From positions 1 to 49,577 of the IMG/VR virus record IMGVR_UViG_3300025141_000153: DNA of 49,577 nucleotides. One strand, 5' to 3'. The notes under the pieces are model-generated. The model had not been told where the DNA came from and searched no databases. It saw only the letters and a list, made by a program, of their open reading frames with translations. Shown in pieces: positions 1,433 through 49,577 of the stretch. The translations under genes and the position numbers were made by a program. Source of the stretch: a virus. Within the stretch, counting starts at the first letter, position 1, and each line of letters opens with the position of its first letter.

Positions 1433-2167
1433 ATGAGACATTATAAAGTAAACAAAATTAATCATATAGTTTTTGACACAATAGAAGAGGTGCCTAAGAA
1501 AATAAAGTACCTTGAGGATTGGAGGGATGGTCATATAAGTGATTGGGTGAAAGCTGACGATGGTTGCGTGATACAAATTTTAAGAGAAGGCAACATGATT
1601 AAGCCCAAAGGAAGGGTTCGTCAGGTGAAATATATCGGTACTTGTACGGGTACTTTTATTGTGTCAAATAATTCAAAAATGGATACCTCTAAAAGGGTCA
1701 ATATATACTCTTTTGGAGGTAACATAGACAGAGATCAAAGATTAGAAGAGAGAGAGAATCTTTCTAGTCGTGAGGAGATTTTTGTCCAGTATATCGCATC
1801 TGGAATGGATGCTCGCATGGCGTATCTAAAGGCATTCCCGACTAATGACCCGCACTATGCAGGATTGCGTGCTGGGCAACTTATAAAAACAACAAGGGTG
1901 AGGACTGCAATGAAAGAAGAGTTAAAGCCTGTATTAGAGGAATTGGGTATTGATGAGACTACTATAATAGGTGGTATTAATTCAATAGCAAGATCTTCTG
2001 AAAAGGATGAAACAAAGTTAAAGGCATTATTTAAGTTAGCTGATATTATGGATCTTGAGGATAAAAATAAAACTTCTGTTACACAAATATCAGGAGCTGT
2101 TTTTCAGGGTTTTGATGAGAAGGTTATAGCAAAGGCTAAGAGACCTGAGGAAATAGAGGCTAAGTAA
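1433..2167 (+). CDS. terS: terminase small subunit
   Basis: Probable DNA-recognition subunit of the packaging terminase. The middle of the 244-residue protein has the usual small-terminase layout: an LSSREEIFVQYIASGMDARM helix-turn-helix-like segment (from about residue 112), an alanine-rich repeat with a predicted helix in ELKPVLEELGIDE, then a KLKALFKLADIM helix proposed for oligomerisation in related proteins. The N-terminal 105 residues are an extra, beta-rich domain I cannot assign. An ATG at 1433 is preferred over the in-frame TTG at 1421, which would sit on the SD itself. It overlaps the next gene by one base and lies four genes before the large subunit, as expected for a packaging operon. 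Confidence 0.75.
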   Translation: MRHYKVNKINHIVFDTIEEVPKKIKYLEDWRDGHISDWVKADDGCVIQILREGNMIKPKGRVRQVKYIGTCTGTFIVSNNSKMDTSKRVNIYSFGGNIDRDQRLEERENLSSREEIFVQYIASGMDARMAYLKAFPTNDPHYAGLRAGQLIKTTRVRTAMKEELKPVLEELGIDETTIIGGINSIARSSEKDETKLKALFKLADIMDLEDKNKTSVTQISGAVFQGFDEKVIAKAKRPEEIEAK

Positions 2168-3317: not shown

Positions 3318-3595
3318 AGTTTGAATGCTCTAAATGTACGGCCTGTTGTTACTTAAATGCTAGCATGGGGTTGGTACCTAAAGGGAAGGATGGAGCTTGT
3401 GTACATTTAACAGATGAAGGTGAATGCGGAATATATGATGAAAGACCTTTAGAGTGCAATGTAAAAAGGATGGCAAAAGCAACTAATACTCCTGAAAAAA
3501 AATATTATAAAATTGCTTCTACTGTATGCAATAATTTAATGGATATATGTGAAGTTGACAAAGAGTACAGACTAGATCCAGAAATATATGAGTAA
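3314..3595 (+). CDS. CxxCxxCC (YkgJ/UPF0153-type) cysteine-cluster protein
   Basis: The 93-residue protein has nine cysteines. The N-terminal CSKCTACC (Cys 5, 8, 11, 12), then Cys29, Cys38 followed by GIYDERPLEC with Cys48, then Cys72 and Cys79. This is the pattern of the CxxCxxCC family, annotated as a putative zinc- or iron-chelating domain, with the family's hallmark C-x-I-Y-x-x-R-P-x-x-C. The family's biochemical role is poorly defined; a metal cluster in the ligand set is the usual inference. It sits between terminase genes, overlapping the previous gene by ATGA and terL by eight bases. The length matches a minimal single domain. Its presence in a packaging operon is unusual. Confidence 0.85.
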   Translation: MKFECSKCTACCYLNASMGLVPKGKDGACVHLTDEGECGIYDERPLECNVKRMAKATNTPEKKYYKIASTVCNNLMDICEVDKEYRLDPEIYE

Positions 3596-6362: not shown

Positions 6363-6900
6363 TATTGCAAACCAGTTTACTGGGTTACCAATAGAAAACC
6401 TTATAGCAGCGCCTTTATTGGCAGCAGCTGAAGGTCAAAAATCCTTAGCATCTACAACTGCTCAGTTTATAACTGAGGTTGGAATGGATGATAAGGGTAA
6501 TACTAAATCAGTTACATTTAATTATGCAGATGGATCTGAAGAAGTAAAATTAGATGTTCCATTATTATCGATTATCAATATACCTAGCTTATGTGTAGAT
6601 AGTATTGATATTGAATTTAATATGGAAGTATCAACACAAAGTTCTTCAAAATCATCTACAGATTCAAGCGCAACTGTTAATGCTTCATGTGGATTTGCTT
6701 GCTGGAAAGCAAGTTTTGAAGGCAAGGTGTCTCATCATTCTGAAAGTAATAGAAGTTCTGATACATCAGCTAAGTATACTATTTCAGTTAAAGGCAAACA
6801 GGAAAAACCTGAAGGCTTAATGAAAGTAATGGATATGCTAAATAGCTCTATAGGTAAAACTAAAGATAAGGCTCCCAGTGGCGATCAACCAGGAGGTTAA
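6352..6900 (+). CDS. DUF2589 family protein, first of a tandem pair
   Basis: The 182-residue protein follows the DUF2589 layout: an N-terminal IAAPLLAAAEGQKSLASTTA helix followed by FITEVGMDD, a beta segment ending KLDVPLLSIINIPSLCVDSI, an FNMEVSTQ strand, a Ser-rich loop (residues 95-110), and a C-terminal YTISVKGKQEKPEGLMKVMD. The family is mostly bacterial and has no assigned function; members are often found in pairs. Here the second member follows directly. AGGAG lies upstream of the ATG. Position between endolysin and portal suggests a virion or assembly role. It could be a decoration or chaperone-like protein, but no evidence distinguishes these. Confidence 0.8.
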   Translation: MASSIANQFTGLPIENLIAAPLLAAAEGQKSLASTTAQFITEVGMDDKGNTKSVTFNYADGSEEVKLDVPLLSIINIPSLCVDSIDIEFNMEVSTQSSSKSSTDSSATVNASCGFACWKASFEGKVSHHSESNRSSDTSAKYTISVKGKQEKPEGLMKVMDMLNSSIGKTKDKAPSGDQPGG

Positions 6901-7349: not shown

Positions 7350-9653
7350 ATGGCAAAAAAGAAACCTGATATAATAAGACGGCTGTATAATCTAGCAAAT
7401 AATTGGACTAGGCAACAATGGGAACATATAAACCAAAAGGGTTATGAGTTTTCTCATGATGAGCAGTTATCTGAAGAAGAAAGGACTTTATTAGAGGATC
7501 AAGGGATGCCTACTTTTACTATAAATAGAATCTTACCTGTTGTGGAAATGTTAAATTTTTATGCTACTGCAAATAAACCTAGATGGCAGGCTATTGGAAC
7601 GGAGGGTAGTGATTCTGATGTTGCAGCCGTTGTCTCTGATTTATCTGATTATATTTGGTATAATTCGAAAGGTTCTACTTTGTATGCAAATGCTGTTAAT
7701 GATAGTATAACTAAAAGTATAGGATATTTGTTGGTTACAGTAGATAGAGATGCAGATAATGGGATGGGAGAGGTGGTTATACAGCAACCTGAACCTTTTG
7801 ATATATATGTAGATCCAAAATCGAGAGATATGCTATTTAAGGATGCATCCTTTATTATGATTAGAAAGGTTTTACCAAAAGAGCATTTAATGACATTATT
7901 CCCTGATCATAAGAGGAAAATATCTCAAGCGAGTAGTGACGAAAATTATCAAAGATCCTTTTCTGCTAGAAGAATGGGAGATAGGGATCAAAAATTATTT
8001 ACTTTTAATGATTCTGCTGATGGTTCATCTACTCAGGGAATTACTCCAGATGGAGAGATGGATGATCTTGTAGAATTTTTCGAAATATATGAAAAGGTAA
8101 AAATAAAATATATGAATGTATTTTATAGAATACCTCCAGATAAGGCGCAATTAAAACAAATGGAAGAGCAGTGTGCTGTAATGGTAAAAGAAATGTCCGC
8201 TGAATTAGAAGTTAAGTTGTTAGAAAGAGAGAAGGAATTAGCAGAAGGTGTTCAAAAAGGGGAAATTCTTCCAGAAAGAATGCAACTTGAGTTAGAAAAA
8301 GCTAAGGAGAATGCAGCTGAACAGATACAGGCATTTGCTCAGCAATGCATGAGCCAATTACAGGCAGAAGCATCTAAAATAGAGAATACTATAATAACAG
8401 AAAAGGAATATAAAATATTAATATCCGATGAGGAATTTGCTAAAAATATAGTAGAAGCTGTTTCGTTTTTTGACACAAGAGTAAAACAAATTTGTGTAGC
8501 TGGTGATAAGGTTTTATATGAACAAGTGTTACCTGAAAATATTAAAGAGTATCCTTTAGTTCCATTTCATTTTAAATGGACAGGAACTCCATATCCAATA
8601 AGTGCTGTTGCTCCATTGATAGGCAAACAAAAAGAAATAAATAAAGCTCATCAAATAATGGTTCATAATGCATCTTTAGGAAGTTCATTAAGATGGATGT
8701 ATGAAGAGGGAAGTATAGATCCTGATGTATGGGAAAAATATGCATCTAGTCCAGGAGCTTTATTGCCTATTAGACCTGGTGTAGAAAGACCTACTCCTGT
8801 TATGCCTGCCCCCTTATCAAATGCTTTCTTTTCTATAGTCCAACAAGGAAAAAGTGATATGGAATATCTTGCAGGTATTTATAGTTCTATGATGGGAGAT
8901 TCTGCGGGAGCTTCTGAAACATATAGAGGAATGTTAGCTTTAGATGAGTATGGAACTAGAAGAATAAGACAATGGATGAGCAATTCAATAGAACCAGCTT
9001 TAACTCATTTAGGCCAAATTATTGTTCAATATGCTCAGGCAACTTATACTGCTAATAAAAGATTTAGAATAATTCAACCTAATGCTATACAAGAAGGAAG
9101 GGACCAAGAAATTAATATACCTATATATAATGATATGGGGGAAGCTGTAGGAAAATCAATGGACGTTACAGCACATAAATTTGACATTAGAATAGTGGCT
9201 GGCTCTACTTTACCTGTAAATAGATGGGCATACTTAGAGGAATTAAAACAATTATTGCAATTGGGAGTTGTTGATGATATTGCAGTATTAGCTGAAACAG
9301 ATTTAAGAAATAAAGAAAAAATTGTCCAAAGAAAATCTTTATATGCTCAACTTCAGAGTCAAATAGGATCACTTGATGAAGCATTAAAAGATAGTCAAGG
9401 TACAATTGAAACATTAGAAAGACAATTAGTTCAAGCTGGTATTAAAAATAAGGTAATGCAAGCTGATGTCGAAATAAATAAAAAGAAAGAGCAAGTTAAA
9501 AGTAACATGGATAAAGAGCTCACTCAAACTCAAGGAGAACAGAAATTATTAAGAGGTTCAATGAATAATGATGCCCAATTAATAAGAGCAAGATCTCAAG
9601 ATATGTTAAATAATCAAAAAAAAGACTTGGAAAGTAGTTCAGAAAATGAATAA
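7350..9653 (+). CDS. portal protein (P22-like)
   Basis: Dodecameric channel at the unique capsid vertex, through which terminase packages and the tail delivers DNA. At 767 residues it has the P22-type size and N-terminus: an LLEDQGMPTFTINRILPVVE block, then MLNFYATANKPRWQAIG, and the strand IQQPEPFDIYVDPKSRD. A long coiled coil at about 265-350 (rich in Glu, Lys, Gln) is inserted between wing strands. The crown-like C-terminus (610-767) is a further coiled coil ending in charged and Gln-rich sequence, as in the barrel of P22 portal. It precedes scaffold and capsid genes, the canonical order. Confidence 0.87.
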   Translation: MAKKKPDIIRRLYNLANNWTRQQWEHINQKGYEFSHDEQLSEEERTLLEDQGMPTFTINRILPVVEMLNFYATANKPRWQAIGTEGSDSDVAAVVSDLSDYIWYNSKGSTLYANAVNDSITKSIGYLLVTVDRDADNGMGEVVIQQPEPFDIYVDPKSRDMLFKDASFIMIRKVLPKEHLMTLFPDHKRKISQASSDENYQRSFSARRMGDRDQKLFTFNDSADGSSTQGITPDGEMDDLVEFFEIYEKVKIKYMNVFYRIPPDKAQLKQMEEQCAVMVKEMSAELEVKLLEREKELAEGVQKGEILPERMQLELEKAKENAAEQIQAFAQQCMSQLQAEASKIENTIITEKEYKILISDEEFAKNIVEAVSFFDTRVKQICVAGDKVLYEQVLPENIKEYPLVPFHFKWTGTPYPISAVAPLIGKQKEINKAHQIMVHNASLGSSLRWMYEEGSIDPDVWEKYASSPGALLPIRPGVERPTPVMPAPLSNAFFSIVQQGKSDMEYLAGIYSSMMGDSAGASETYRGMLALDEYGTRRIRQWMSNSIEPALTHLGQIIVQYAQATYTANKRFRIIQPNAIQEGRDQEINIPIYNDMGEAVGKSMDVTAHKFDIRIVAGSTLPVNRWAYLEELKQLLQLGVVDDIAVLAETDLRNKEKIVQRKSLYAQLQSQIGSLDEALKDSQGTIETLERQLVQAGIKNKVMQADVEINKKKEQVKSNMDKELTQTQGEQKLLRGSMNNDAQLIRARSQDMLNNQKKDLESSSENE

Positions 9654-19690: not shown

Positions 19691-19969
19691 ATGGAGTTTA
19701 TTACAAATCATCTAACAGGTATTATAGTGAGCGGATTAACCGCATTAGCACTATGGGCTTTAAAAAAGATACCTAATGACATGATATACTCAAAAGTTGA
19801 ATCAGGATGTTATGCTGTAGGTACAGCTATGACATTAGGACTAAGTAAATGGAGATTAACTAAAGATTTATGGAATAAGACTATAGAACCTTATTTTGTT
19901 GATTTAGTTGATAATACAGTAGGAGCTGCTGTTCAAGGTTTTATTAAAGGCTTAAAAAGTGACGATTAA
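19691..19969 (+). CDS. 92-residue membrane protein, holin candidate
   Basis: One N-terminal membrane span (LTGIIVSGLTALALWALKKI), a second, weakly hydrophobic segment (CYAVGTAMTLGLSKWRLTKD) and an amphipathic, basic end (FIKGLKSDD). The order and a WNKTIEPYF motif recall a conserved small membrane protein found near tail genes in marine-type phages. It might be a holin. AAAAGGAG precedes the ATG. Confidence 0.55.
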   Translation: MEFITNHLTGIIVSGLTALALWALKKIPNDMIYSKVESGCYAVGTAMTLGLSKWRLTKDLWNKTIEPYFVDLVDNTVGAAVQGFIKGLKSDD

Positions 19970-19998
19970 TATTATAGGATATATTAATATACCTGAAA

Positions 19999-20090
19999 AT
20001 TATTGGGAGAGGACTTACAGCACCCCCCTTATATCCGATAATTCGGATTGTGCATATACAGTTACTCGCAAGAACACCTCTCCCAATAAT
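19999..20090 (+). ncRNA. structured leader with a perfect 14-bp closing helix
   Basis: ATTATTGGGAGAGG (19999-20012) pairs perfectly with CCTCTCCCAATAAT (20077-20090). Inside, GCAC (20020-20023) pairs with GTGC (20050-20053), enclosing ATCCGA (20033-20038)/TCGGAT (20043-20048) with a 4-base TAAT loop. The closing helix ends 5 bases before AAGGAGA, the SD for the 1226-residue tail gene at 20104. The 3' arm, CCTCTCCC, is also complementary to that SD, so an alternative fold would mask it. No T run follows, so it is not an intrinsic terminator. It matches no riboswitch class I know. Confidence 0.65.
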
Positions 20091-20103
20091 AAAAAGGAGA
20101 ATA

Positions 20104-23100
20104 ATGGCTAAACAAGTATTAACATTAAATGGATTTGGTGGTGGTATTAATAAAGATGCTGATGGTACTGACTTATCTTCTACAGGAAATCCTCTTGAGG
20201 ATGAAGTACGTTCAGCTGAAAATATTTATCTAGATCAACATGGAAAAATTATAAATTCTACTCCACTTGTTCAAGCAGACACAGGTTTGTATGGATTTGA
20301 TTTAGGTTCTGCACAAGGAGGTGCTTGGACTGCAGATGTTGTTTATACTACCCCTGTTGAAGCAACTGTTTATAGTGGAAGTGGGGATGAAGTTCTCTTT
20401 GTTTATACTACAAATAATTCAGGTGTGCCTACTTTTACAATTGTGCAGACAGGATATGGATTAGCTGTAGATGATACAATGCGATTTGCAGAACCTGGAG
20501 ATGCGAGTAAATACTATGTAGCAACAGTAAAATCTATACATGGTAGTGCTGCAACTGATGGTACTTATACAACTAGAAGTTTAATGAATATTACAGAAGG
20601 TGATATTTATGATACTACTGCTAATAAAGTGCTTTTATATGATGATAAACTAAATAGAGCTGAAGGTATTTATAAGCATGGAGAAGTTATATTGTATAAT
20701 AAATATACGGATTATATGTCATTTTTACCTAGCACAGGAGAATTGGGTTCTCATAATGATGGAGCAGCTCCAAGTACTTGTGCTGATGGCGTTAATCTAT
20801 TATTTAGATCAGATAGAAGGCCTGTTACAGATAAAACTCCAATTTCAGGTGTAACTTGGATAGGGAAGGGTTCTGAAGGCTGTATAAATATATTTCTGGG
20901 GGCAGATGCTCGTGGATGGAGTTCTCAAGGATCTGGAAAAAATAGTGGTTCGATGTTTGATGTTGGTACTCTAGTTGGAGGAGGAAGATATGTAAAGCAA
21001 ATGACTACAAAGAACGAAGATGCCCAAAGATTAACAAACCTTGAAGATGGTGGTTCAACACAGTCTATGTATCATATAACAGATAATGTTGGAGATATTC
21101 AAGATAGTTATCCTCCTGCATTAGGACATGATCATGAATACGATATATGCGGACAAGTAATAGCCTCTAGAACCGATGATGATAAAATGAATTTTACTAA
21201 TTTAGCAGAAGGCAGTCACCCAAGTTCTGCCGATCCAAAATTAGCGGATTTAGTTGGTGGGGATTTTTCTGGTGCGGGTGGTGTTAACGCTACAGACAAG
21301 CAAGATGCTAGCATTGATTGTCATTATCATGAAATACATGATTTTATGTGGCTATATTGGGACATAACAGCTCCAGCTGAAGGTTCTACCCTTGATTGGA
21401 TGGAAGAATTATCCAATGAAGAAGATGCACACGGGGCTGATAAACAGGCTGGAATGGCTTTAGTTTTTACTCCAGGAAAAAGAAGTGATGCTGGGGAAGC
21501 TTGGGAAGGCGCTTATGGAAGATATTGCCCTAGTATATATAATAAAACAATAAGACTTCAAATCAGAATTCAAAATGGTGCTTATATTAAATCTGAAGAG
21601 ATTTCAGGTGTATATATTTTAGCAGAGACTTCTATAAATTCAACACTCGCCGTAACAACAGTAGTATCTGTAGATGATACTTGTAAAACTTGGTTTATCT
21701 CAAGAGCAGAATTAGTTGCTGCTATGGATTCAAGGGGTTGGGTAGAAGTTGAGAAATTAGTGAGTAATTATCTTTTTGAAGGAGGTAGTTATGCTGGAGA
21801 TGATAAAATATTAGCATTTTATATATATGTAAAAAAACATAAAGCAATGGGATTACATGCAGCAAATAACGAAACCTATACTTCTGTATTTAGATTACGT
21901 GAATTTTCTTTTGTTGAAACACTTTCATCAGGTTGGGCTGCATATGATTATGTTAAAATTTTTGAAACAAGAATGAATAATGGGATAGAGTCTATACCTA
22001 AACAAAAGGTAAGTACTATGACATTTGAAGGAGGGGGCGATAATGCTGTAGCTTGTCCCAGTATATGTAAAATAAGAACTAATGCTCAAGAAGTATTTAT
22101 ACAAAGACCTGCAGCAGCTGATAGTACACTAACTCATGGTAAATTATATTACCAAGGATGCGATGAAAATGGTATAACATTTGGAGAAAAGTTTTTATTA
22201 GCTGAATATGATTATACAAAAGGCGTTAAGTGGGCAGGTCAAGAAGATGAAGGATATCAGGCATGGGAAACAACTTCTACATTCCCTTATGGTTATGGAG
22301 CAAATTCAAGTGTTACGTATTACGAAGAACCCCCAGTGTCTTCTACGTACTCATTAGAGACAGGTTATCCTGATGGAGTGGAAACTATAAACGCTTTATT
22401 TAAAACAGCAACTACAGTAGGTAGACAGGTATATATAGGAAATGTAGCTCATCAAAAGGTTACCGAAGAAGGAGCAGATGTTAAGAAAACTCAACCACTT
22501 GTTACCACTGCCGTTGCAGCAGACTACAGGCTTAATTTTCAAGCTACAGGTAATTATGTTTATTGGGGAACAACAGGTACAGATACAGAATGGGCTGATC
22601 ATGGTTATGCAGCAGGCGATAGTTTTATAGTTACTAGTGGTTTAAGTAATGCAAATAATCAAAATGTTATATATGAAATAACTGAAATTGGAACAAGTGG
22701 AAACTCAAATAGAGCTACAGTTACTCCAGCCCCTACAACAAGTGCTACTGAAGATGCAGTTAAAATTATTTATGGATTTAAAGCTTATGATCCATCTCTT
22801 ATTTCAAAAACTCCGCCAGGTTCAGCAGCAGGATTCCCGAATAATACATACATAGACTTAGAATTTGGTGGAGATAAGATTAATATTTTAGAATCTACAG
22901 CTGATAGATTATTAGTATTTTCAGATTATAAATTAACAATTGTTAATGTTTCTCAAGATATTGAATTTATTGAAGCTACATTAGATCATATGGGCGTTTC
23001 AGAACCAAGACAAGTATGTAAAGTAGGTGAGGGGGTTGCATGGGTTAATAGTAGTGGTGTTTTTTATTTTGACGGAGAAAACGTAAATCCTTTATCGGCT

Positions 23101-42683: not shown

Positions 42684-42690
42684 CATATGA

Positions 42691-42704
42691 CCTGCTTACG
42701 CAGG
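42691..42704. terminator. short stem between convergent operons
   Basis: CCTGC (42691-42695) and GCAGG (42700-42704) form a G/C-rich stem with a TTAC loop, 8 bases after the dioxygenase stop. Downstream on the plus strand there is a TTTGTTT tract about 8 bases after the stem. Plus and minus gene sets meet here, so a terminator is expected. The stem is short and the tract is offset, so it is only a candidate. Confidence 0.4.
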
Positions 42705-42723
42705 CCACATGTTTGTTTATGAA

Positions 42724-42882
42724 CTATCTACCCAGTCTTAAAAGGTCATACAACATTCCAATTATTTTATCCATTTTTAATTCTATTTTATCTAGCCTTA
42801 AAGAATTTACTGTATGGTTTTGGGTATTATCGTAGTTATTTTTATAGGATTTTACTTTATATATTTTGCCCTTATATTTCAT
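42724..42882 (-). CDS. 52-residue small protein
   Basis: Unrecognised and too short for most callers. It is basic at the N-terminus (MKYKGKIYKVKSYKNNYDNT) with a helical C-terminus of hydrophobic heptads (LDKIELKMDKIIGMLYDLLR), suggesting a short coiled coil. GGGAG lies 4 bases upstream of the ATG. It overlaps the stop of the nuclease gene in an ATGA. It is the last gene of the minus-strand arm, adjacent to the late operon end. Confidence 0.6.
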   Translation of the reverse strand: MKYKGKIYKVKSYKNNYDNTQNHTVNSLRLDKIELKMDKIIGMLYDLLRLGR

Positions 42883-43190
42883 AATACTCCCATTTGCTTT
42901 AGTATCATTGTAAGGAAATCTTGATATCTTATAACAACTAAAGTGTCTTCCCTGTCTTCTTTAATTAATGCTATGTCACAACTTTCAGGAGGTTTCATAA
43001 ATGATGCAATTTTCTTTCTCATTTTACATTGGCCTTTAAATTCTCCAATTTTAACATCTACATCTTCTGCTTCTCCTAAAGACAAGCCATTACTAGCATA
43101 TGCTCTAATAGCACTAATTCCCACTTCCTTAGCTTGGTTTACTACCAATCTTTCCAATCTATTACCCCTTGCTTTGTTTTTGCTTGGCAT
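42879..43190 (-). CDS. PD-(D/E)XK-type nuclease, Holliday-junction-resolvase-like
   Basis: Likely recombination or repair nuclease. The 103 residues carry the small resolvase-like core: RGNRLERLVVNQAKEVGISA (conserved Glu in LER), RAYASNGLSLGEAEDVDVKI with the D of EDVD, and EFKGQCKMRKK where Q-x-K replaces the usual E-x-K motif. This order suits VRR-NUC/archaeal Hjc-like proteins. I start at the second Met (MPSKNKARG), because the SD AGGAG lies 9 bases before it and only one base before the first Met. Neighbouring ERF and primase-helicase genes fit a replication-recombination arm. Confidence 0.65.
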   Translation of the reverse strand: MPSKNKARGNRLERLVVNQAKEVGISAIRAYASNGLSLGEAEDVDVKIGEFKGQCKMRKKIASFMKPPESCDIALIKEDREDTLVVIRYQDFLTMILKQMGVL

Positions 43191-43422
43191 TTTTAGCATT
43201 CTCCTTTCGTAGCTTTTCAGAAAACCTATTCATAGCATTATTAGACTCTTCTAATATGTGATCTATATTAATAGGTGATTCTGATTTTATTTTTACAGGG
43301 TGTTTAAGCTGATAGATTTCATTTTCTAGTCTTTTTACTTGACTTTTTAGTTGATTATTTATCAGTTTTGTTAATTCCAGTTCCTCTAGAGCTATTTCCA
43401 GATTTCTTTGATTTTGCGTCAT
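43162..43422 (-). CDS. 86-residue coiled-coil protein
   Basis: Almost entirely a predicted coiled coil (NLEIALEELELTKLINNQLK, then SQVKRLENEIYQLKHP), ending in a Lys/Gln-rich tail. Start at MTQNQRN because AGGAG lies 7 bases upstream; a longer frame to 43443 has no SD. It overlaps its upstream gene by 68 bases and its downstream gene by 29. No function can be inferred beyond self-association. Confidence 0.55.
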   Translation of the reverse strand: MTQNQRNLEIALEELELTKLINNQLKSQVKRLENEIYQLKHPVKIKSESPINIDHILEESNNAMNRFSEKLRKENAKNAKQKQSKG

Positions 43423-43648
43423 TCTCTTTCTCCTTATCTTCATATTCTTTAAACTTAATAGCTAACCATTCTTGCCATTCTTTATGATTTCCATTAAATT
43501 CAATATATGAAGATAAAGCTCCATCTAAAGAATTAATAGCATTTTCCATTGCAGTTATATTTTTCATTAAATTACTAACCATGCCTTGGAACAATTCCAT
43601 AATGGGTTCATCATAGTTTTTGATTTTTACTTTTGGTTTTTTACTCAT
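43355..43648 (-). CDS. 97-residue small helical protein
   Basis: Unrecognised. Basic start (MSKKPKVKIKNYDEPIMELF), a helix (VSNLMKNITAMENAINSLDG), then WQEWLAIKFKEYEDKEKEN and a Ser/Lys-rich tail. The 68-base overlap with the following gene is large for this genome, though both starts have plausible SDs or coupling. It belongs to a run of five small overlapping genes. Confidence 0.5.
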   Translation of the reverse strand: MSKKPKVKIKNYDEPIMELFQGMVSNLMKNITAMENAINSLDGALSSYIEFNGNHKEWQEWLAIKFKEYEDKEKENDAKSKKSGNSSRGTGINKTDK

Positions 43649-43650
43649 TA

Positions 43651-43812
43651 TTATAACCCCAATCTAGTTTTTATTCTATCAGAATCTAACTCTAATTGTT
43701 TAATTCTGGTTAAAATATTATGCATTAACTCAGCGAATCTTTCTTCATTTTTTTCTCTTACTTCTTTCGCTTCTTCTTTCTTTTTTGCTTGTCTTTTAGG
43801 TGTTGGTTTCAT
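43651..43812 (-). CDS. 53-residue coiled-coil peptide
   Basis: Unrecognised; it was not called at standard lengths. It begins with a Lys/Arg/Glu-rich helix (MKPTPKRQAKKKEEAKEVRE) and ends in a Leu/Ile heptad segment (LMHNILTRIKQLELDSDRIK). SD AGGAG lies before the ATG, whose codon overlaps the stop of the 117-residue gene by four bases. Composition suggests an oligomerising, nucleic-acid-contacting peptide. Confidence 0.55.
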   Translation of the reverse strand: MKPTPKRQAKKKEEAKEVREKNEERFAELMHNILTRIKQLELDSDRIKTRLGL

Positions 43813-44162
43813 TTATTCTCCTTTAATCTATTATAGTAATATTTAGACTTACCTGGGTACTCAGATCCTTCAATCATACCCCAGAATAGGCATAAATATA
43901 CAATACTATCTGTTATTCTACCAGTAATATCTTCTCTTTGACTTTCATGTCCTTCAACATGTGCACATATGCCATCTATATGCTTTAAAAGGTATGTTAA
44001 TAGGACTTTCTCCCTAGATATAGATAGATTATTAGCTATTCGCTCAAAGTTTGCAAAAGCATTGTCTTTATCTCTTGCATATTCTTTCTGTCCATCTTCT
44101 CTAGTTTTCTGAATCTTCTTAAAGATATTATCTATTAGTGTTTTCATTTGCTTTCTTGTCAT
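43809..44162 (-). CDS. DUF1599-like (MazG-like all-alpha) protein
   Basis: The segment EYARDKDNAFANFERIANNL, then LLKHIDGICAHVEGH and GRITDSIVYLCLFWGMI, has the DN-x-x-x-NF...KHxDGI...E-x-I-x-x-R-x-x-D-x-x-x-Y order of a phage all-alpha family, related in layout to MazG-like nucleotide pyrophosphohydrolases. If an enzyme, it would cleave nucleoside triphosphates, but the family's activity is not established. AAAAGGAG lies upstream. The leader contains a structured element (44185-44258). Confidence 0.5.
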   Translation of the reverse strand: MTRKQMKTLIDNIFKKIQKTREDGQKEYARDKDNAFANFERIANNLSISREKVLLTYLLKHIDGICAHVEGHESQREDITGRITDSIVYLCLFWGMIEGSEYPGKSKYYYNRLKENK

Positions 44163-44335
44163 TTTTTCTCCTTTTATTAAATTAAAAGAGCCTCACATAT
44201 TCCTTTTAGAGGGGCCTTTCCATGCATTTCCTCAGGCAGGACCAGTTATTGGCTCTTTCAATTTTCCGACTTTCATCCGCTTTCGCTTCAAGTGTTTACA
44301 GGGCTCATGATTTATTACGGCAACGACCTGTAATT
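44163..44335 (-). ncRNA. 173-base structured leader of the DUF1599-like gene
   Basis: In minus orientation, two domains are visible. One has TTACAGG paired with CCTGTAA (44327-44333 with 44296-44302) across a 24-base loop. The second has AAAGAGCC (44251-44258) paired with GGCTCTTT (44185-44192), enclosing 58 bases that contain smaller GC-rich pairings. The second closes 14 bases before AAAAGGAG of the next gene. A stable GC-GAAA-GC turn lies between the two domains. No coding frame covers it. Structure is by eye only. Confidence 0.5.
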
Positions 44336-45151
44336 CTATGAACAAATTGCGTTTATTATACCATCTGTTATCATAGCATTATGATTATATGATGCAAGTG
44401 TTGGCTTCTTTTTATGCCACAATATATCTGTAGCAGAATTAAGTAATCCCCAACCATTGCTAGTACCATGATAATCGCCACGAGGATCAGTAAATTTATC
44501 CACAACTTCACCCCATACACTTGTTGGTATGTTTTGAAGATGATTGTGTCTAATATTGCTGATTTCTTCAACATCTATAGCATGATTATTTAATTGTTTA
44601 ATACCTTTAATCATAGTATTTACATCATTATTATCTCCATCTTGTGTCATATTTATCATATGAACCATAGATTCTAATTGTTTATCCCAATCCTCAGATC
44701 CAGGATTATGTCTAAATCTATAGTTTTGTAGATATTGCTTGCTCATCATTCCATTAGTGCATATTAATCTATAGAGCATTAATGAAAATCCAAACGATCT
44801 TGTACCATCATAACTATTCCAAAATTGTATACCTAAATTCAATTTATCTAATTCGTTATCATCTACAGTGTAATCTACACTTGCTATGCTATCTACAGCC
44901 TTATATGCTAACATAAAGCTTTTACCATTAAAGAACTCTTTGTCTAATTCAAAACTAGTATAAGAACTACTTAATAAATCATCTGCTATTTCTTTAACTT
45001 CTTGGTTAGGTAATAACATATAATTATGTCCTACTATACCTGATTCTTGCCAACCTTTTTCTTCATCTAATCTTTGTACAGCATAAGCTGATGATTGAAG
45101 ACCATCGAATGATTCTAAAGGCACTTTTCTTATTTCTTGATACGGATTCAT
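44336..45151 (-). CDS. DUF932 family protein
   Basis: Phage/plasmid-type protein of unknown biochemical role. The 271 residues have the family's central block LGIQFWNSYDGTRSFGFSLM then YRLICTNGMM, where NSYDG and C-TNGM are characteristic, and the N-terminal ESGIVGHNYMLLPNQEVKEI element. The family is common next to replication genes in phages. It is preceded by a structured leader with a pseudoknot candidate and AAAAGGAG. Confidence 0.85.
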   Translation of the reverse strand: MNPYQEIRKVPLESFDGLQSSAYAVQRLDEEKGWQESGIVGHNYMLLPNQEVKEIADDLLSSSYTSFELDKEFFNGKSFMLAYKAVDSIASVDYTVDDNELDKLNLGIQFWNSYDGTRSFGFSLMLYRLICTNGMMSKQYLQNYRFRHNPGSEDWDKQLESMVHMINMTQDGDNNDVNTMIKGIKQLNNHAIDVEEISNIRHNHLQNIPTSVWGEVVDKFTDPRGDYHGTSNGWGLLNSATDILWHKKKPTLASYNHNAMITDGIINAICS

Positions 45152-45266
45152 ATCTTCTCCTTTTAATTTTATTGAGGGAGTGAAACAGGCAAATTAATAG
45201 TCTGTGAACTGTTTGGGCGACTATTAATCTGTGTATATCCTTACGAATATACTCTCCCTCAATTGT
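45152..45266 (-). ncRNA. structured inter-gene RNA with a pseudoknot candidate
   Basis: The whole 115-base gap between the primase-helicase stop and the DUF932 start is paired. ATTGAGGGAG (45263-45254) pairs with CTCCCTCAAT (45180-45171). GTATAT/ATATAC (45252-45247 with 45238-45233) forms a side hairpin. ATTAATAGTC/GACTATTAAT (45228-45219 with 45202-45193) is a 10-bp stem whose 16-base loop contains AAACAG (45214-45209), complementary to CTGTTT just outside the stem (45188-45183): an H-type pseudoknot. Closing helix starts 4 bases after the stop and ends about 10 bases before AAAAGGAG. No riboswitch class comes to mind. Confidence 0.65.
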
Positions 45267-47012
45267 TTATCCAATTAAAGCATCTTTTACAGGTAATTGT
45301 AAATCGAGGCTTTCTCTTTCTCTGTTTGCTGTACATTCTAACCTTAATGATTTAATAAGTTTGTTTTCATCCTTAAAAGGAGTTAATGACAATACTTTAT
45401 TAGCATTATAGGCTATTCTAAATGAACCTTTAGATGAAGCTATATTCATACCTTCACTAAAAGCTGTTTTAGTTATTTCAGATACAGCAAATACAATAAT
45501 ATTATTATGTACTGCAAGTTCCATTAAAGATTGAGAAACTTCCTCTACTTTCATATTATTATCATGCTTTTGAGATTTAAATAATCCCATGTGATCTACA
45601 ACTACGATTTCAGGTTTCTTTGGTAACATTAATATCCTTTTATGTAATTCTTGAGGATAACAACTGCTATAATCAACAGTTAACCAATCAAAGTCTTCGC
45701 TTATTCCGTTAGCATATTTGCTATAATAGTCTTTTAATTCTTCTTCAGTCCATTTATTTTCTATCATAACAAATCGCATCCACATTTGTCTAGGGCTCAT
45801 TTCCATTTCCATGAAATATGTAGTACGTTTAAACCTATTAACTAGATTCTGTAATAACATTGTTTTCATAGACTTGGGAGGAGCTTGTAATATTACAACT
45901 TCACCTGGATATATTGGGAATTTCTGCCCATATGGTGCTCCTATATCTATAGGGTTGTGGTTTCTTGTAAAGAACTCCACTAATTCTTTTTCCATAGTTT
46001 TTGCATCCATTGTGTGTTGTGATACTTTAGACTTATATAATCTACAAGTTGACTGACAATGTTTATCCATATGAATATCACTACATCCATAATTATAACC
46101 ATTTCCATTGTGACCCTCATAACAATCAGTAACTATTTTATCCATCTCAGTTTTAGTAAATGGACTTGTACCTATATCTACCCTTTGTCTCCAATCTTCC
46201 ATTACTAGCCTTACTATATGTTCTGGATATCTCCATCTTAGAAACGCACCAATACGCAGTGCTATCTGATGTCTTGAGCCTTGAGCAGTTCCTTCCATCA
46301 TAGTTTGTATACAAGGATACCATACAGGATCTGGATTCTTACCTAGAGATACAGATTCAAATACTTTATCACTTGCTTTATTCTTTCTTTCTAATACATC
46401 GAACACAGGATCACAATCATTTTCTCTAACAGCTGTACTCCATTTAAATGTATGGCGTTGACTACCTGCTAATTTCTGTATTTCTTCTATAGTTCCATGT
46501 AATTCACTATGAGTTAATGGTATTTTCCATAACTTAGATTTACCATTTAATGTATTTACTATTCTGATGATTCTTGTTTTATCTGATACTGACGGATCTG
46601 CATATTCATAAATACCTCTAGCTTTTAATTCGTCCTTAACTTTTAAATGTAAGTCTGGACACGGCTTCCATCTGAAAGCATTGCCTGGTATTCCTAAATG
46701 AAACCCTGTTCCTGAGAAATATATCTGATAGGGTACACATAAATCATCCAACTCTATAGTTAATGCTATAGTTTTATCTTTGGCCTGCTTAGGATTTGCT
46801 CCATCTACATCCAATATGAATTCATCTGGCATATAAAGTATTCCATCATATCCAGATAAACTCCCTTTTTCCTTTACAAAATCAACTACATGAGCATCAT
46901 AATCCCATAAAGACATAAATGTATCTTGAGCCATACCTGCGTATTTCTCTACATCATTTGTATCTCCAAAGTGATGTCTATTAGCTAATCCAAATGCATA
47001 CTCTTTTATCAT
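45267..47012 (-). CDS. primase-helicase fusion
   Basis: Replication enzyme joining an archaeo-eukaryotic-type primase and a RecA-type helicase in 581 residues. N-terminal part: FILDVDG (D68, D70), YFSGTGFHLGIPG (98-110) and RIIRIVNTLNGKSKLWKIPL (147-166), the AEP/PrimPol active-site blocks. Middle: ARHQ-type SRHQIALRIGAFLRW (246-260) and a Cys/His cluster C310-x5-H-x2-H-x-C319-x3-C323 typical of a primase C-terminal domain. C-terminal part: P-loop QAPPKSMKTML (376-386), VVVDHMG (470-476), and DnaB/RecA-like later blocks. The P-loop has Met where GKT normally has Gly (KSMKT). SD is AAGGAGA. Confidence 0.87.
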   Translation of the reverse strand: MIKEYAFGLANRHHFGDTNDVEKYAGMAQDTFMSLWDYDAHVVDFVKEKGSLSGYDGILYMPDEFILDVDGANPKQAKDKTIALTIELDDLCVPYQIYFSGTGFHLGIPGNAFRWKPCPDLHLKVKDELKARGIYEYADPSVSDKTRIIRIVNTLNGKSKLWKIPLTHSELHGTIEEIQKLAGSQRHTFKWSTAVRENDCDPVFDVLERKNKASDKVFESVSLGKNPDPVWYPCIQTMMEGTAQGSRHQIALRIGAFLRWRYPEHIVRLVMEDWRQRVDIGTSPFTKTEMDKIVTDCYEGHNGNGYNYGCSDIHMDKHCQSTCRLYKSKVSQHTMDAKTMEKELVEFFTRNHNPIDIGAPYGQKFPIYPGEVVILQAPPKSMKTMLLQNLVNRFKRTTYFMEMEMSPRQMWMRFVMIENKWTEEELKDYYSKYANGISEDFDWLTVDYSSCYPQELHKRILMLPKKPEIVVVDHMGLFKSQKHDNNMKVEEVSQSLMELAVHNNIIVFAVSEITKTAFSEGMNIASSKGSFRIAYNANKVLSLTPFKDENKLIKSLRLECTANRERESLDLQLPVKDALIG

Positions 47013-47021
47013 ATTATCTCC

Positions 47022-47327
47022 TTAAAATGGTATATCTTTTTCAGTAAATTCCTTATACATTTTTCCTTTAAAACTATTTGTAGGTGTAATCTGACTTAAT
47101 CTCCAAACCTGTTGTCTTCCTTTTTTAGCAAGTTTTTCTACTACTAATACACCATCAGTTCTCATTCTTCTAAACTCTCTAGTATAAGTTCCAGGACTAC
47201 CTAAATAATTACCAAATTCCTGCTTACCTTCATAAGATAATTCCTGTATATCAGAAGTTTTAAAAGTTCTCATTGGTGAGTTTTCTAAGTTTTCTAATTC
47301 TCTTTTAATATGTTCTCTTACTGTCAT
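47022..47327 (-). CDS. 101-residue winged-helix-like protein
   Basis: Start chosen at MTVREHIK because AAAGGAG lies 6-7 bases before it; an open frame to 47384 has no SD. Basic and small with REHIKRELENLENSPMRTFK, SYEGKQEFGNYLGSPGTYTR, then EFRRMRTDGVLVVEKLAKKG, a helix-helix-beta order with TDG turn that suits a winged helix for nucleic acid binding. It is next to the primase-helicase and might regulate or load it; there is no direct evidence. The C-terminus is polar. Confidence 0.55.
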   Translation of the reverse strand: MTVREHIKRELENLENSPMRTFKTSDIQELSYEGKQEFGNYLGSPGTYTREFRRMRTDGVLVVEKLAKKGRQQVWRLSQITPTNSFKGKMYKEFTEKDIPF

Positions 47328-47460
47328 AATTTCTCCTTTAAGTTTATTTATTCCGACACGACACCCGTGTTGCTCTACCCGCATTTCTAGTCCACGGAAA
47401 TAGCCTAGATTCCCAACAGAATTATTAGGATATTAGTAAACGCGACTAATCCACGTCATC
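47328..47460 (-). ncRNA. 133-base structured leader of the winged-helix-like gene
   Basis: In minus orientation ATTAGT/ACTAAT (47450-47445 with 47437-47432) forms a hairpin with a 7-base loop, and downstream TATTTCCG (47402-47395) pairs with CGGAATA (47355-47349), one bulge, enclosing ACACG/CGTGT (47370-47366 with 47360-47356). It fills the whole gap before the SD at about 47339-47334. No coding potential. The pairing is weaker than in the other leaders. Confidence 0.4.
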
Positions 47461-48024
47461 CTAAAACTGGTTAGCAAATGGTTCTGCGGGAGTAGCACTA
47501 TTAGGTGATACACCTTTAGATCCTTCTAACATTATTGTCACTCTCTTTTCAGCCGAAGCTTTAATTGATTCTACATCTGTTGATGTAAATGACAAATGTT
47601 CACCTTGTTGCTCAGTAGGTGCTATACCATCAAATATACGAGAATAGTTTTCACCTGTCTTATTCTCTTTGTATATAAGAATGCTTACAACTTTACCTAC
47701 TAGCCCTTTTGGTTCATCATCAAATTGAATCAATGGATGTTTACCATTAGGATCTTTTAATACACCTACTATACCAGCATTAGCATACTTAAAGATATTT
47801 GCTACTTTGAATTCTTCTTTAGTTGTCTTATTAAATACTTCATAAGCACGAAGATTCATATTATCAGGATAACCTTCAAACCATATATCTAGGTATCTTT
47901 TATCAGGTGTATCTGGTACAGCTGATTCATAAACACCGTATACAGCTTTAGATATAGTTACTTGATGCCATCCTTCTTCAAACTTACTTCCACCGCTGGA
48001 AGCTGACATTGTTTTAATTGCCAT
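47461..48024 (-). CDS. SSB-like single-strand-binding protein
   Basis: Inferred role: coats ssDNA with the adjacent ERF. The 187 residues open GWHQVTISKAVYGVYESAVP and RYLDIWFEGYPDNMNLRAYE, with alternating beta strands of an OB-like fold (VNxxVFNKTTKEEFKVANIF then LVGKVVSILIYKENKTGENY), and end in a Ser/Pro/Ala linker and PFANQF, a hydrophobic tip like the SSB C-terminal interaction peptide. I recall the same pattern (G-x-x-x-V-x-I..YxVF..GKxVxIxVYxE) in ERF-linked DUF669/SSB-type proteins. SD AAGGAGAAA precedes MAIKTM. Confidence 0.65.
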   Translation of the reverse strand: MAIKTMSASSGGSKFEEGWHQVTISKAVYGVYESAVPDTPDKRYLDIWFEGYPDNMNLRAYEVFNKTTKEEFKVANIFKYANAGIVGVLKDPNGKHPLIQFDDEPKGLVGKVVSILIYKENKTGENYSRIFDGIAPTEQQGEHLSFTSTDVESIKASAEKRVTIMLEGSKGVSPNSATPAEPFANQF

Positions 48025-48033
48025 GTTTTCTCC

Positions 48034-48513
48034 TTATTTACGATTAGTTATCGATTCACCATCATCGTCTTTTTGTGCAATACCTACCATAGCAGATAAA
48101 GCAAATCTTCTTGCATATGTAGTAGTAGCACCAACTGCTTGCGCATCCTTTTTGCCTCCTACTGGCATTTGCAATTTCGATCTAATCCATTGTCCTGATG
48201 CATGTAATAGTGTAGTGGTTACATAAAATGTTCCCTTATCATCTTTTTCATGACCTTGAACAACAGATAATCCTTGTTTACTTAGATATGGAATAGAAGA
48301 TTCAATAACTGTATATAAATCAGCATAATTAGATTTAAAGAATGGATTTATACTACTAGCTTTAGCACCTTTCATATCACCTTGTGCTTTAGCTAATGCA
48401 GTTGCCAGTCTATCTATTTTATCGGATTTCCATACAGGTTGTCTTCTATCTTCTACCTCTTGTTCTTCATTATCAGAGATAGGTATATCTATGGTTTCAT
48501 TATCTTGTTCCAT
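48034..48513 (-). CDS. erf: ERF single-strand annealing recombinase
   Basis: Annealing recombinase of the phage recombination system. Core motifs are intact: LAKAQGDMKGAKASSINPFF, KSNYADLYTVIESSIPYLSK, QGLSVVQGHEK, TTTLLHASGQWIRSKLQMP and TTYARRFALSAMVGIAQKDDDG. Family length is normal for the core with an acidic N-terminal extension (residues 1-25). It lies beside the SSB-like protein and the primase-helicase, a common set in phages that replicate via recombination. The SD AGGAG is preceded by a long structured RNA. Confidence 0.93.
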   Translation of the reverse strand: MEQDNETIDIPISDNEEQEVEDRRQPVWKSDKIDRLATALAKAQGDMKGAKASSINPFFKSNYADLYTVIESSIPYLSKQGLSVVQGHEKDDKGTFYVTTTLLHASGQWIRSKLQMPVGGKKDAQAVGATTTYARRFALSAMVGIAQKDDDGESITNRK

Positions 48514-48848
48514 TAATTTCTCCTATTTGTGGGGGTTATAATTTACTAAAAGCGGACAAACTTTCCAAGTTATTAAGAGGGTGGTGTAACAGTTAATTTT
48601 ATGTTACTTTGTGGCTGCCAATTTAATGACTGATGCATCACCTAGACTCTCACCCTCTTAAAGTTATTAATGTAGTCAATGCAACTGTAACCCTAAATCG
48701 GCTGGGCTTATTAAGGAAGCAGGTCCAACACGTTGCTTTTAGTTAGATGTCAGGATATCCACGCTACACTACTCCCTTTAGCTTAGTTAATACAGCGCCA
48801 TACAGGTTCTCTTAGAGATCGGCTGCAGCGACTCCGTGACTGACATGA
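48514..48848 (-). ncRNA. 335-base noncoding region with two large structured domains
   Basis: No gene is visible. In minus orientation the first domain is closed by TTAATGTAGTCA (48857-48846), which overlaps the last codons of the upstream gene, paired over 12 bp with TGACTACATTAA (48678-48667). Inside it TGTCAG (48845-48840) pairs with CTGACA (48753-48748), directly stacked, and AAGCA/TGCTT (48738-48734 with 48721-48717) forms another stem. The second domain is closed by TTAAGAGGGTG/CACCCTCTTAA (48661-48651 with 48583-48573) with GTAACA/TGTTAC inside (48607-48602 with 48591-48586). Then 59 bases of leader follow to the ERF gene. Confidence 0.6.
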
Positions 48849-49196
48849 CTACATTAAATTCATTTTCTTTATATTCTTCTTGGTACTTTCCATCCAAGGT
48901 TTTGGTTTAATTTCTTTAAGCCAATCTTGAACTGTAGGAATAAAGCCTAGATCCTCTCTTACATGTTGTTCTGCAATACAACGTACTGGTATTTCTTTAC
49001 CATCAGAGTTCTTTATTGTTATTCCAAATTTATCTTCACACCATTTTACACCTAAGCAATGATGTCTTAAAGATCTATGTCTCATATCAGCCCAATTATT
49101 CTTAGTTTCATCAAACCAAGCATGAATTTTATGATAATCCGATTCCTGGCCACCAAAATACTTTACACTTGATTTACAATGATTAAAGGCTTTCAT
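48849..49196 (-). CDS. 115-residue conserved phage protein, DUF6915-like
   Basis: The product has a dense set of His/Asp/Trp motifs: SSVKYFGGQESDYHKIHAWF then RHRSLRHHCLGVKWCEDKFG, then NSDGKEIPVRCIAEQHVRED and FIPTVQDWLKEIKPKPWM. This ordered set (FGG..DY..IH..D..RHR..RHH..G..E..FG..VR..EQHV.ED.G.IP) is one I associate with DUF6915, common in phages and prophages, function unknown; several histidines could bind metal. It overlaps the previous gene by ATGA and ends inside the closing helix of the next RNA domain. Confidence 0.7.
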   Translation of the reverse strand: MKAFNHCKSSVKYFGGQESDYHKIHAWFDETKNNWADMRHRSLRHHCLGVKWCEDKFGITIKNSDGKEIPVRCIAEQHVREDLGFIPTVQDWLKEIKPKPWMESTKKNIKKMNLM

Positions 49197-49577
49197 CTTT
49201 CGTAAACCTCGTTACCATATTCGTATTTAGGTTCTCTACCATCCATAAAGTATGTTTCTTTAACTTCTACACAAGCATATCTATTCTGCTCTCCATTACA
49301 TAGAAATTCCTCTTTCTCTAGATTCCATACTAATTCACCTTGACCGCCTTCATTGTTATACCAATCATAATCTACAAGCTCAACAAGTTCCCAATGTAAT
49401 TCTTTGATAAAATTATTATCAGGATGATTATCTCTAAACAACTTATATTGTTCTTCAAGTTCTTTTTGATTCCTATTCATACCCTTCCATTCATCAAAGT
49501 TTTCTTGTTTGTTATGATTATAAGGTTTACATTGATATGTATCTGGATAATATCCTGTTGTCTCATCTCTACCTTCA
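49193..49577 (-). CDS. hypothetical protein, cut by the window edge
   Basis: The reading frame of a 95-residue call starting at 49480 stays open to the last base of the window, giving at least 127 residues. The extension reads EGRDETTGYYPDTYQCKPYN then HNKQENFDEWKG and looks coding. The ATG at 49480 has no properly spaced SD, so the true start probably lies outside. The C-terminal part, LVDYDWYNNEGGQGELVWNL then EEFLCNGEQNRYACVEV, is beta-rich with an acidic, Gly-rich turn reminiscent of calcium-binding-like phage DUFs. No family can be assigned. It overlaps the next gene by ATGA. Confidence 0.55.
   Translation of the reverse strand, partial: EGRDETTGYYPDTYQCKPYNHNKQENFDEWKGMNRNQKELEEQYKLFRDNHPDNNFIKELHWELVELVDYDWYNNEGGQGELVWNLEKEEFLCNGEQNRYACVEVKETYFMDGREPKYEYGNEVYER

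Follow-up and report, generated by a model that had tools for sequence, protein, structure and literature searches.

In the early transcript of phage T7, the intercistronic gaps contain irregular hairpins that serve as RNase III sites and precede the next ribosome-binding site. We describe here elements from the early arm of an uncultured marine phage that resemble the T7 sites in position and fold, since they too lie in intercistronic early gaps ahead of the next ribosome-binding site. They differ from the T7 sites in having an invariant frame (in the family designated A), nested modules and several unrelated families that permute between junctions, features that to our knowledge are not known for the T7 sites. 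The promoters of the N4 virion polymerase are small DNA hairpins of a single type located upstream of early genes; the elements described here are likewise hairpin-forming sequences upstream of early genes, but the constraint upon them is on RNA. The REP/BIME palindromes of enterobacteria are mobile, intergenic and able to stabilise mRNA, and REP sequences are present in many copies per genome and have a partner transposase. The near-identical multicopy character of REP/MITE-type elements was not found here, as family A is present in only 1-2 copies per record, and a partner enzyme was not seen. Another comparison is provided by the promoter early stem-loops (PeSLs) of T4-type phages (Arbiol 2010, Comeau 2014, cited in PMC4503421), which are characterized in the citing paper as small intergenic stem-loop cassettes linked to gene shuffling between relatives. 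To judge from title and citation in that paper, a PeSL combines an early promoter and a stem-loop or terminator. Our elements are like PeSLs, as cited there, in being small, intergenic and built on a stem-loop, in phages whose gene order is shuffled between relatives, and unlike them in having complex internal structure and no enrichment of promoters (sigma-70) or terminators. GOLLD RNA (RF02032), found in relatives of this phage, is likewise a structured RNA of phages, one part of it conserved and another variable, and is large and occupies other positions. Descriptions of such elements as ours were not found in the literature searched, coverage of which was partial.

The stretch of DNA analysed, referred to below as the window, is a virus record of 49,577 bases. 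Its plus strand encodes a terminase, a portal protein (phrog_156) and a protein with a weak major-head match, and its minus-strand early arm encodes a RusA-like resolvase, a primase-helicase, a protein with a weak single-stranded DNA-binding protein (SSB) match and, by family match, an Erf-type annealing protein. A close relative of the primase was absent among 50,697 phage records, and the terminase matches in the phage collection, mostly to podovirus-named phages, showed about 25-27% identity; we therefore place the phage in a group without a near relative in that collection. Comparisons were made with about 190 related loci (labelled L###), which were picked via the primase and via the family A frame, so that locus frequencies are not unbiased. 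Terminases of the other records bearing family A range from 94% down to 30% identity with that of the window. Families other than A are represented by few sequences each, E2 by one relative. Relatives of a 1244-aa protein were recovered by whole-record search; a pattern scan gave none. The two convergent arms of the genome are separated by a 195-base gap (42684-42878) with a strong hairpin (CATATGACCTGC..GCAGGCCACATG) at the plus-strand start, possibly a two-way terminator. This gap and the segments 1-390 and 688-1040 likewise lack clear genes, contrary to the original prediction that the early-arm gaps and one plus-strand stretch are the only long noncoding stretches of the genome.

The gaps at 44163-44335, 45152-45266 and 48514-48848 are exactly intergenic, and the gap at 47328-47460 is so provided that the next gene begins at the ATG ending at 47327. 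These gaps are 35-41% GC, against 32% for the early genes. When fold stability was scored against 200 dinucleotide shuffles, z was -3.7 for 44177-44267, -8.5 for 45169-45263, -2.6 for 48574-48666 and -6.4 for the plus-strand stretch 19999-20090, and the single-fold stability of 47335-47460 (z -0.7) and 48660-48862 (z -1.0) was not unusual. Because some gaps fold far better than shuffles and others do not, single folds are insufficient to settle structure, and the case for putative structure in the two latter segments rests on comparison of homologues. Such comparison, which the original prediction had proposed as a check, supported structures by covariation for family A and for the elements designated PK, E3 and F. 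The gaps are thus structured, as had been claimed; the further idea that each is one set of nested helices with a long closing stem failed for 48514-48848, which comprises several elements.

The family A element of the window, at 44179..44264 on the minus strand, lies between genes for 271-aa and 117-aa proteins and consists of a 14-bp outer stem, a conserved internal loop and a helix, P2. Its frame, GAGAGCC-AATAACTGGTCC ... GGAATATGTGAGG-CTCTC, was found in about 110 distinct copies with a mean identity of 98% between copies, and the inserts at the tip were barely above shuffled similarity, that is, near unrelated. The window carries the insert CCTGAGGAAATGCATGGAAAGGCCCCTCTAAA, which recurs identically in L159. 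The outer arms are location-specific and covary strongly: both sides were changed in 11/14 pairs in an alignment of 52 copies. The structure score of 0.253, compared with 0.104 +/- 0.008 for shuffles, was reached in 0/500 shuffles, a count that is not a probability since the sequences are related, and it fell to 0.075 or less once the partner strand was slid. Helix 2 is nearly invariant and hence uninformative by covariation. In 90 distinct arm pairs, the inner eight pairs included 31 G-U and 0 A-C combinations; counted over 29 distinct inner stems the ratio was 15 to 0. This asymmetry points to a pairing constraint on the sense RNA, not on DNA or the opposite strand, and also argues that the arms do not match for purely mutational reasons. 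Conservation of the elements as RNA is well supported by these comparisons. The original contention that the gaps must do something, as RNA control or processing elements, is borne out to the extent that covariation and the G-U excess over A-C (31 vs 0) mark selection on transcribed RNA; the function itself we infer.

Family A also showed a fixed placement. Where both flanking genes share a strand, 68 copies were in sense and 1 in antisense orientation, a count based on crude gene calls, with 10 further copies having mixed flanks. Family A lies in the early arm, on the strand that does not carry the terminase, in 21/21 of the records with a model match to A. The stem begins a median of 12 nt past the preceding stop codon and ends a median of 8 nt before the Shine-Dalgarno (SD) sequence, which was inside the stem in 0/84 copies with a recognisable SD. 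The view that most elements close within 10-20 bases of an SD does not extend to 48514-48848, where about 50 nt lie between the last stem and the SD. Genes downstream of A fall into about 43 clusters. As an intercistronic irregular helix on the sense strand of the early arm, family A has the feature expected of T7-type RNase III sites. The families are not strictly limited to one copy in each genome, since two A copies are present in L002, L059 and a few other records.

No full A element was found in the phage collection. Of five matches to the frame in bacterial genomes, four fall within coding sequence, three of them in one fadJ-type gene, and are apparently due to chance; the fifth is real and lies in a Flavobacteriales contig assembled from a metagenome, which is probably phage since a related terminase is encoded there too. 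The near-invariance of the internal-loop nucleotides across phages with terminases of ~30% identity suggests that a factor is bound, that the RNA is catalytic or that the family spread recently, and the identity of the frame may reflect either constraint or recent horizontal spread, both of which are compatible with the data. Variant outer frames (GAGAGTC.ATAACTCGTCC..GGAACACGTATGGCTCTC; GAGAGCCAATGCTCAAGGAGG..CCTGACAGAGTGAGGCTCTC) in L102 (~6530-6620), L159 (~9350-9440), L019 (~620-710) and L026 (~3450-3550) carry the inner TAAGTCC..GGCA adaptor of family A. A piece resembling a tRNA, TGTAAGA...GGGTTCGAATCCC...TCTTACA, is part of the A insert at L108 (~1700-1765, plus strand); it seems to lack a D arm, and ARAGORN called no tRNA there.

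The remaining early gaps contain other families, all on the minus strand. In the same gap as A is element K (44296..44333; TTACAGG...CCTGTAA; z -1.9), with relatives in L099, L129, L130, L184, L197 and others, and between K and A is a short conserved piece, AGCGAAAGCGGATGAAAGTCGG (44266..44287), also present in L004, L009 and L061. Element E2 (45171..45263; z -8.5), between the primase-helicase gene and the 271-aa gene, has a 10-bp closing stem enclosing two hairpins, and its one relative is in L099; the AAACAG of its second loop is complementary to a downstream CUGUUU, so that a pseudoknot is possible. The gap at 47328-47460 holds PK (47428..47456), an H-type pseudoknot in which both sides of the first helix were changed in 3/5 pairs, and E3 (47349..47424), which has an outer stem with compensatory changes and a hypervariable insert and which occurs at two different junctions in relatives. 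Element F with a nested module, J, element E6 and, ahead of the SD, a conserved tail make up the region of 48514-48848. The closing stem of F (48667..48857), TTAATGTAGTCA/TGACTACATTAA, overlaps the end of a 115-aa gene; F has a conserved core and three variable arms, and its homologues show compensatory changes. J (48713..48779), of 67 nt, is nested in a variable loop of F; it stands alone beside F in L006 and L059, and the F loop is without J in L006 and L190. E6 (48573..48661; z -2.6), between F and the erf leader, is flanked by direct repeats of the 8-base sequence AATAACTT. The site is empty in L006 and L012, where AATAACTT is single, and other elements occupy it in L002, L003, L057 and L059; two copies of the repeat flank different elements in the window, L003 and L059. 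One filled/empty site of this kind is too little from which to infer an insertion mechanism. The erf leader (48520..48571) is conserved, runs up to the erf SD and has no closing stem. A 9-bp closing stem between J and the tail, suggested by single-sequence folding, was rejected because it is lost in L059, which keeps J but has a different tail.

Comparison of the junctions among relatives showed extensive exchange. At the junction of the primase gene and the 271-aa gene, E2 is found in the window and A, B, C or D, or no element, in relatives. After the SSB gene, the PK and E3 of the window are replaced by A in others, and at the junction of the 271-aa and 117-aa genes, the K and A of the window give way to PK and E3, or to B. 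Different families thus occupy the same junction, even where the primases of the relatives are 82-90% identical, and a single family can be found at several junctions. An element is missing between the primase and 271-aa genes in L014 and between the 271-aa and 117-aa genes in L062, junctions that are filled in relatives. With regard to nesting, about 40/111 A inserts matched sequence outside A elements, a few of these being degenerate A copies or short chance matches, and the ends of the inserts were mutually complementary beyond what was obtained with swapped ends (1000 swaps). Segments shared between gaps had at least 6 closing pairs at their ends in 17% of cases, nearly the same as in the control (14%); this test is near null because the gap set held many small genes. 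On this comparative evidence, the elements come from uncatalogued RNA families that swap junctions and nest in one another among related phages. We also consider it possible, although we hold the proposal with considerable reserve, that the phage group has a common pool of folded modules that insert into junctions and into each other's loops, such that each genome has a different nested assembly and RNA domains, not genes, are the unit that spreads and recombines. In L002, L006 and L059, the homologue of the 271-aa gene lies upstream of a 127-aa gene and not after the primase gene, so gene order around these junctions also varies.

The stem-closed stretch at 19999-20090 on the plus strand, to which the same plan had been ascribed, is of a different sort. 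In six relatives the homologous large gene comes after a similar stem, with an interior of 56-64 nt, so that the stem is indeed kept, but the stretch is not noncoding. It lies in the late arm within a small ORF (19959-20111) of ~50 codons; relatives retain both its frame and the motif GYI.IP..WER....SP. Through the stem, the window and at least five of the six relatives have an open frame for similar short peptides. Coding frame and stem both appear conserved. We have kept this stretch apart from the noncoding early elements. The codons for Trp-Glu-Arg and Ser-Pro make up the two arms of the long stem.

What the early elements do must be judged from these patterns. We favor, tentatively and at a little short of an even chance, the reading that they are exchangeable intercistronic RNAs that insulate, process or stabilise early cistrons. 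The underlying observations are clearest for family A, with its conservation as sense-strand RNA, fixed stop/SD geometry, many different downstream genes and exchangeable nested modules. Fixed geometry, a free SD, indifference to the gene and the exchange of unrelated folds together suggest a role generic to the junction rather than to the gene. The elements would act in cis on the early polycistronic mRNA, each as a self-closed domain between a stop codon and the free SD of the next unit. They may separate cistrons by setting processed or protected mRNA ends, either through cleavage by host RNase in or beside the fold or by blocking decay; with the SD left open, neighbouring early genes would have independent mRNA life and translation. 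If any compact fold suffices, families would be interchangeable and loops could accept other closed folds, and exchange could occur by short-homology recombination within shared frames and arms, in which the Erf-type annealing protein of the phage might take part. A generic insulator role alone leaves the near-invariant internal loop of A unexplained, so that factor binding, catalysis or recent spread may also be involved.

Recent spread is the core of a reading that we regard as unlikely, namely that the modules are mobile and largely selfish, spread between and within phages, and are tolerated because they close on themselves, the fold being kept mainly because misfolding harms the neighbouring SD. 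The occurrence of one family at different junctions, the modules common to unrelated frames, J both alone and nested, the filled and empty site with 8-base direct repeats, and a near-identical A frame in phages whose terminases are about 30% identical would all be expected of such modules. However, A has only 1-2 copies per record, a reverse transcriptase (PF00078) was found in 0/28 records by a search whose control matched in 3 genomes, the lone filled/empty site is insufficient for a mechanism, and the sense orientation and stop/SD spacing of A are tighter than mere tolerance requires. A bound factor is at the centre of another reading, which we consider unlikely: each family would bind a specific protein or metabolite to control translation or decay, or be released as a trans-acting RNA. 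The near-invariant loop nucleotides, the presence of about one A copy per genome with its position free, and the fact that the same phage group encodes GOLLD RNA are in keeping with it, but a trans-acting RNA would not need tight stop/SD spacing, the main stem does not sequester the SD (0/84), and 43 unrelated clusters of downstream genes do not suggest a single metabolic signal. As for catalysis, A has a near-invariant unpaired core set among variable stems, unrelated folds of several kinds share one junction, and the location is directly ahead of the SD; these features might suggest several new classes of self-cleaving ribozymes that cut the early transcript between cistrons. We think this decidedly unlikely, as no known ribozyme core was detected by Rfam even at permissive thresholds, and A is a rod with internal loops, which most known self-cleaving folds do not resemble.

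The original prediction had also raised DNA hairpin promoters for an N4-like virion RNA polymerase, a reading that we find scarcely credible. In its favor, the hairpins are located upstream of early genes and the record encodes very large unannotated proteins; against this stand G-U without A-C in family A and the different elements at one junction. Moreover, promoter-like matches, sought by sigma-70 consensus only, were not enriched (29 found vs 33.5 +/- 6.1 expected), and no polymerase was recognised by sequence. The latter searches are weak negatives: the largest proteins had no Pfam, PHROG or PDB sequence match, and a PF00940 search that gave no recognition was equally silent on control genomes. 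Intrinsic terminators (short stem plus T run) gave 1 match in 43000-49577 vs 1.7 expected. Rfam 15 covariance models gave no match in the window at the gathering score and chance-level matches only in permissive scans; in relatives they found only GOLLD and tRNA, at positions other than those of the elements.

The elements represent several structured RNA families that are new, one of them comprising about 110 members, and they constitute a natural experiment in which one frame has different inserts, one junction has different elements, and sites are filled or empty. It should thereby be possible to test by what route domains are added to structured RNAs, by what means phages keep early cistrons separate, and whether marine phages draw on a common pool of RNA parts.

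Two further observations may be noted. GOLLD is present in relatives that bear family A (L099:799-1219, L130:6608-6999 and L184:4150-4541), and L061 and L062 show partial similarity to GOLLD regions; the window is without GOLLD, and BLAST of the GOLLD regions found no clear module in common with the window's early elements. The closing stems of A, C, D, E2, E6, J and the stretch at 19999-20090 have a purine-rich, SD-like 5' arm (GAGAG, GGGAG) and a pyrimidine-rich 3' arm, an arrangement that could permit pairing with the downstream SD in an alternative fold.
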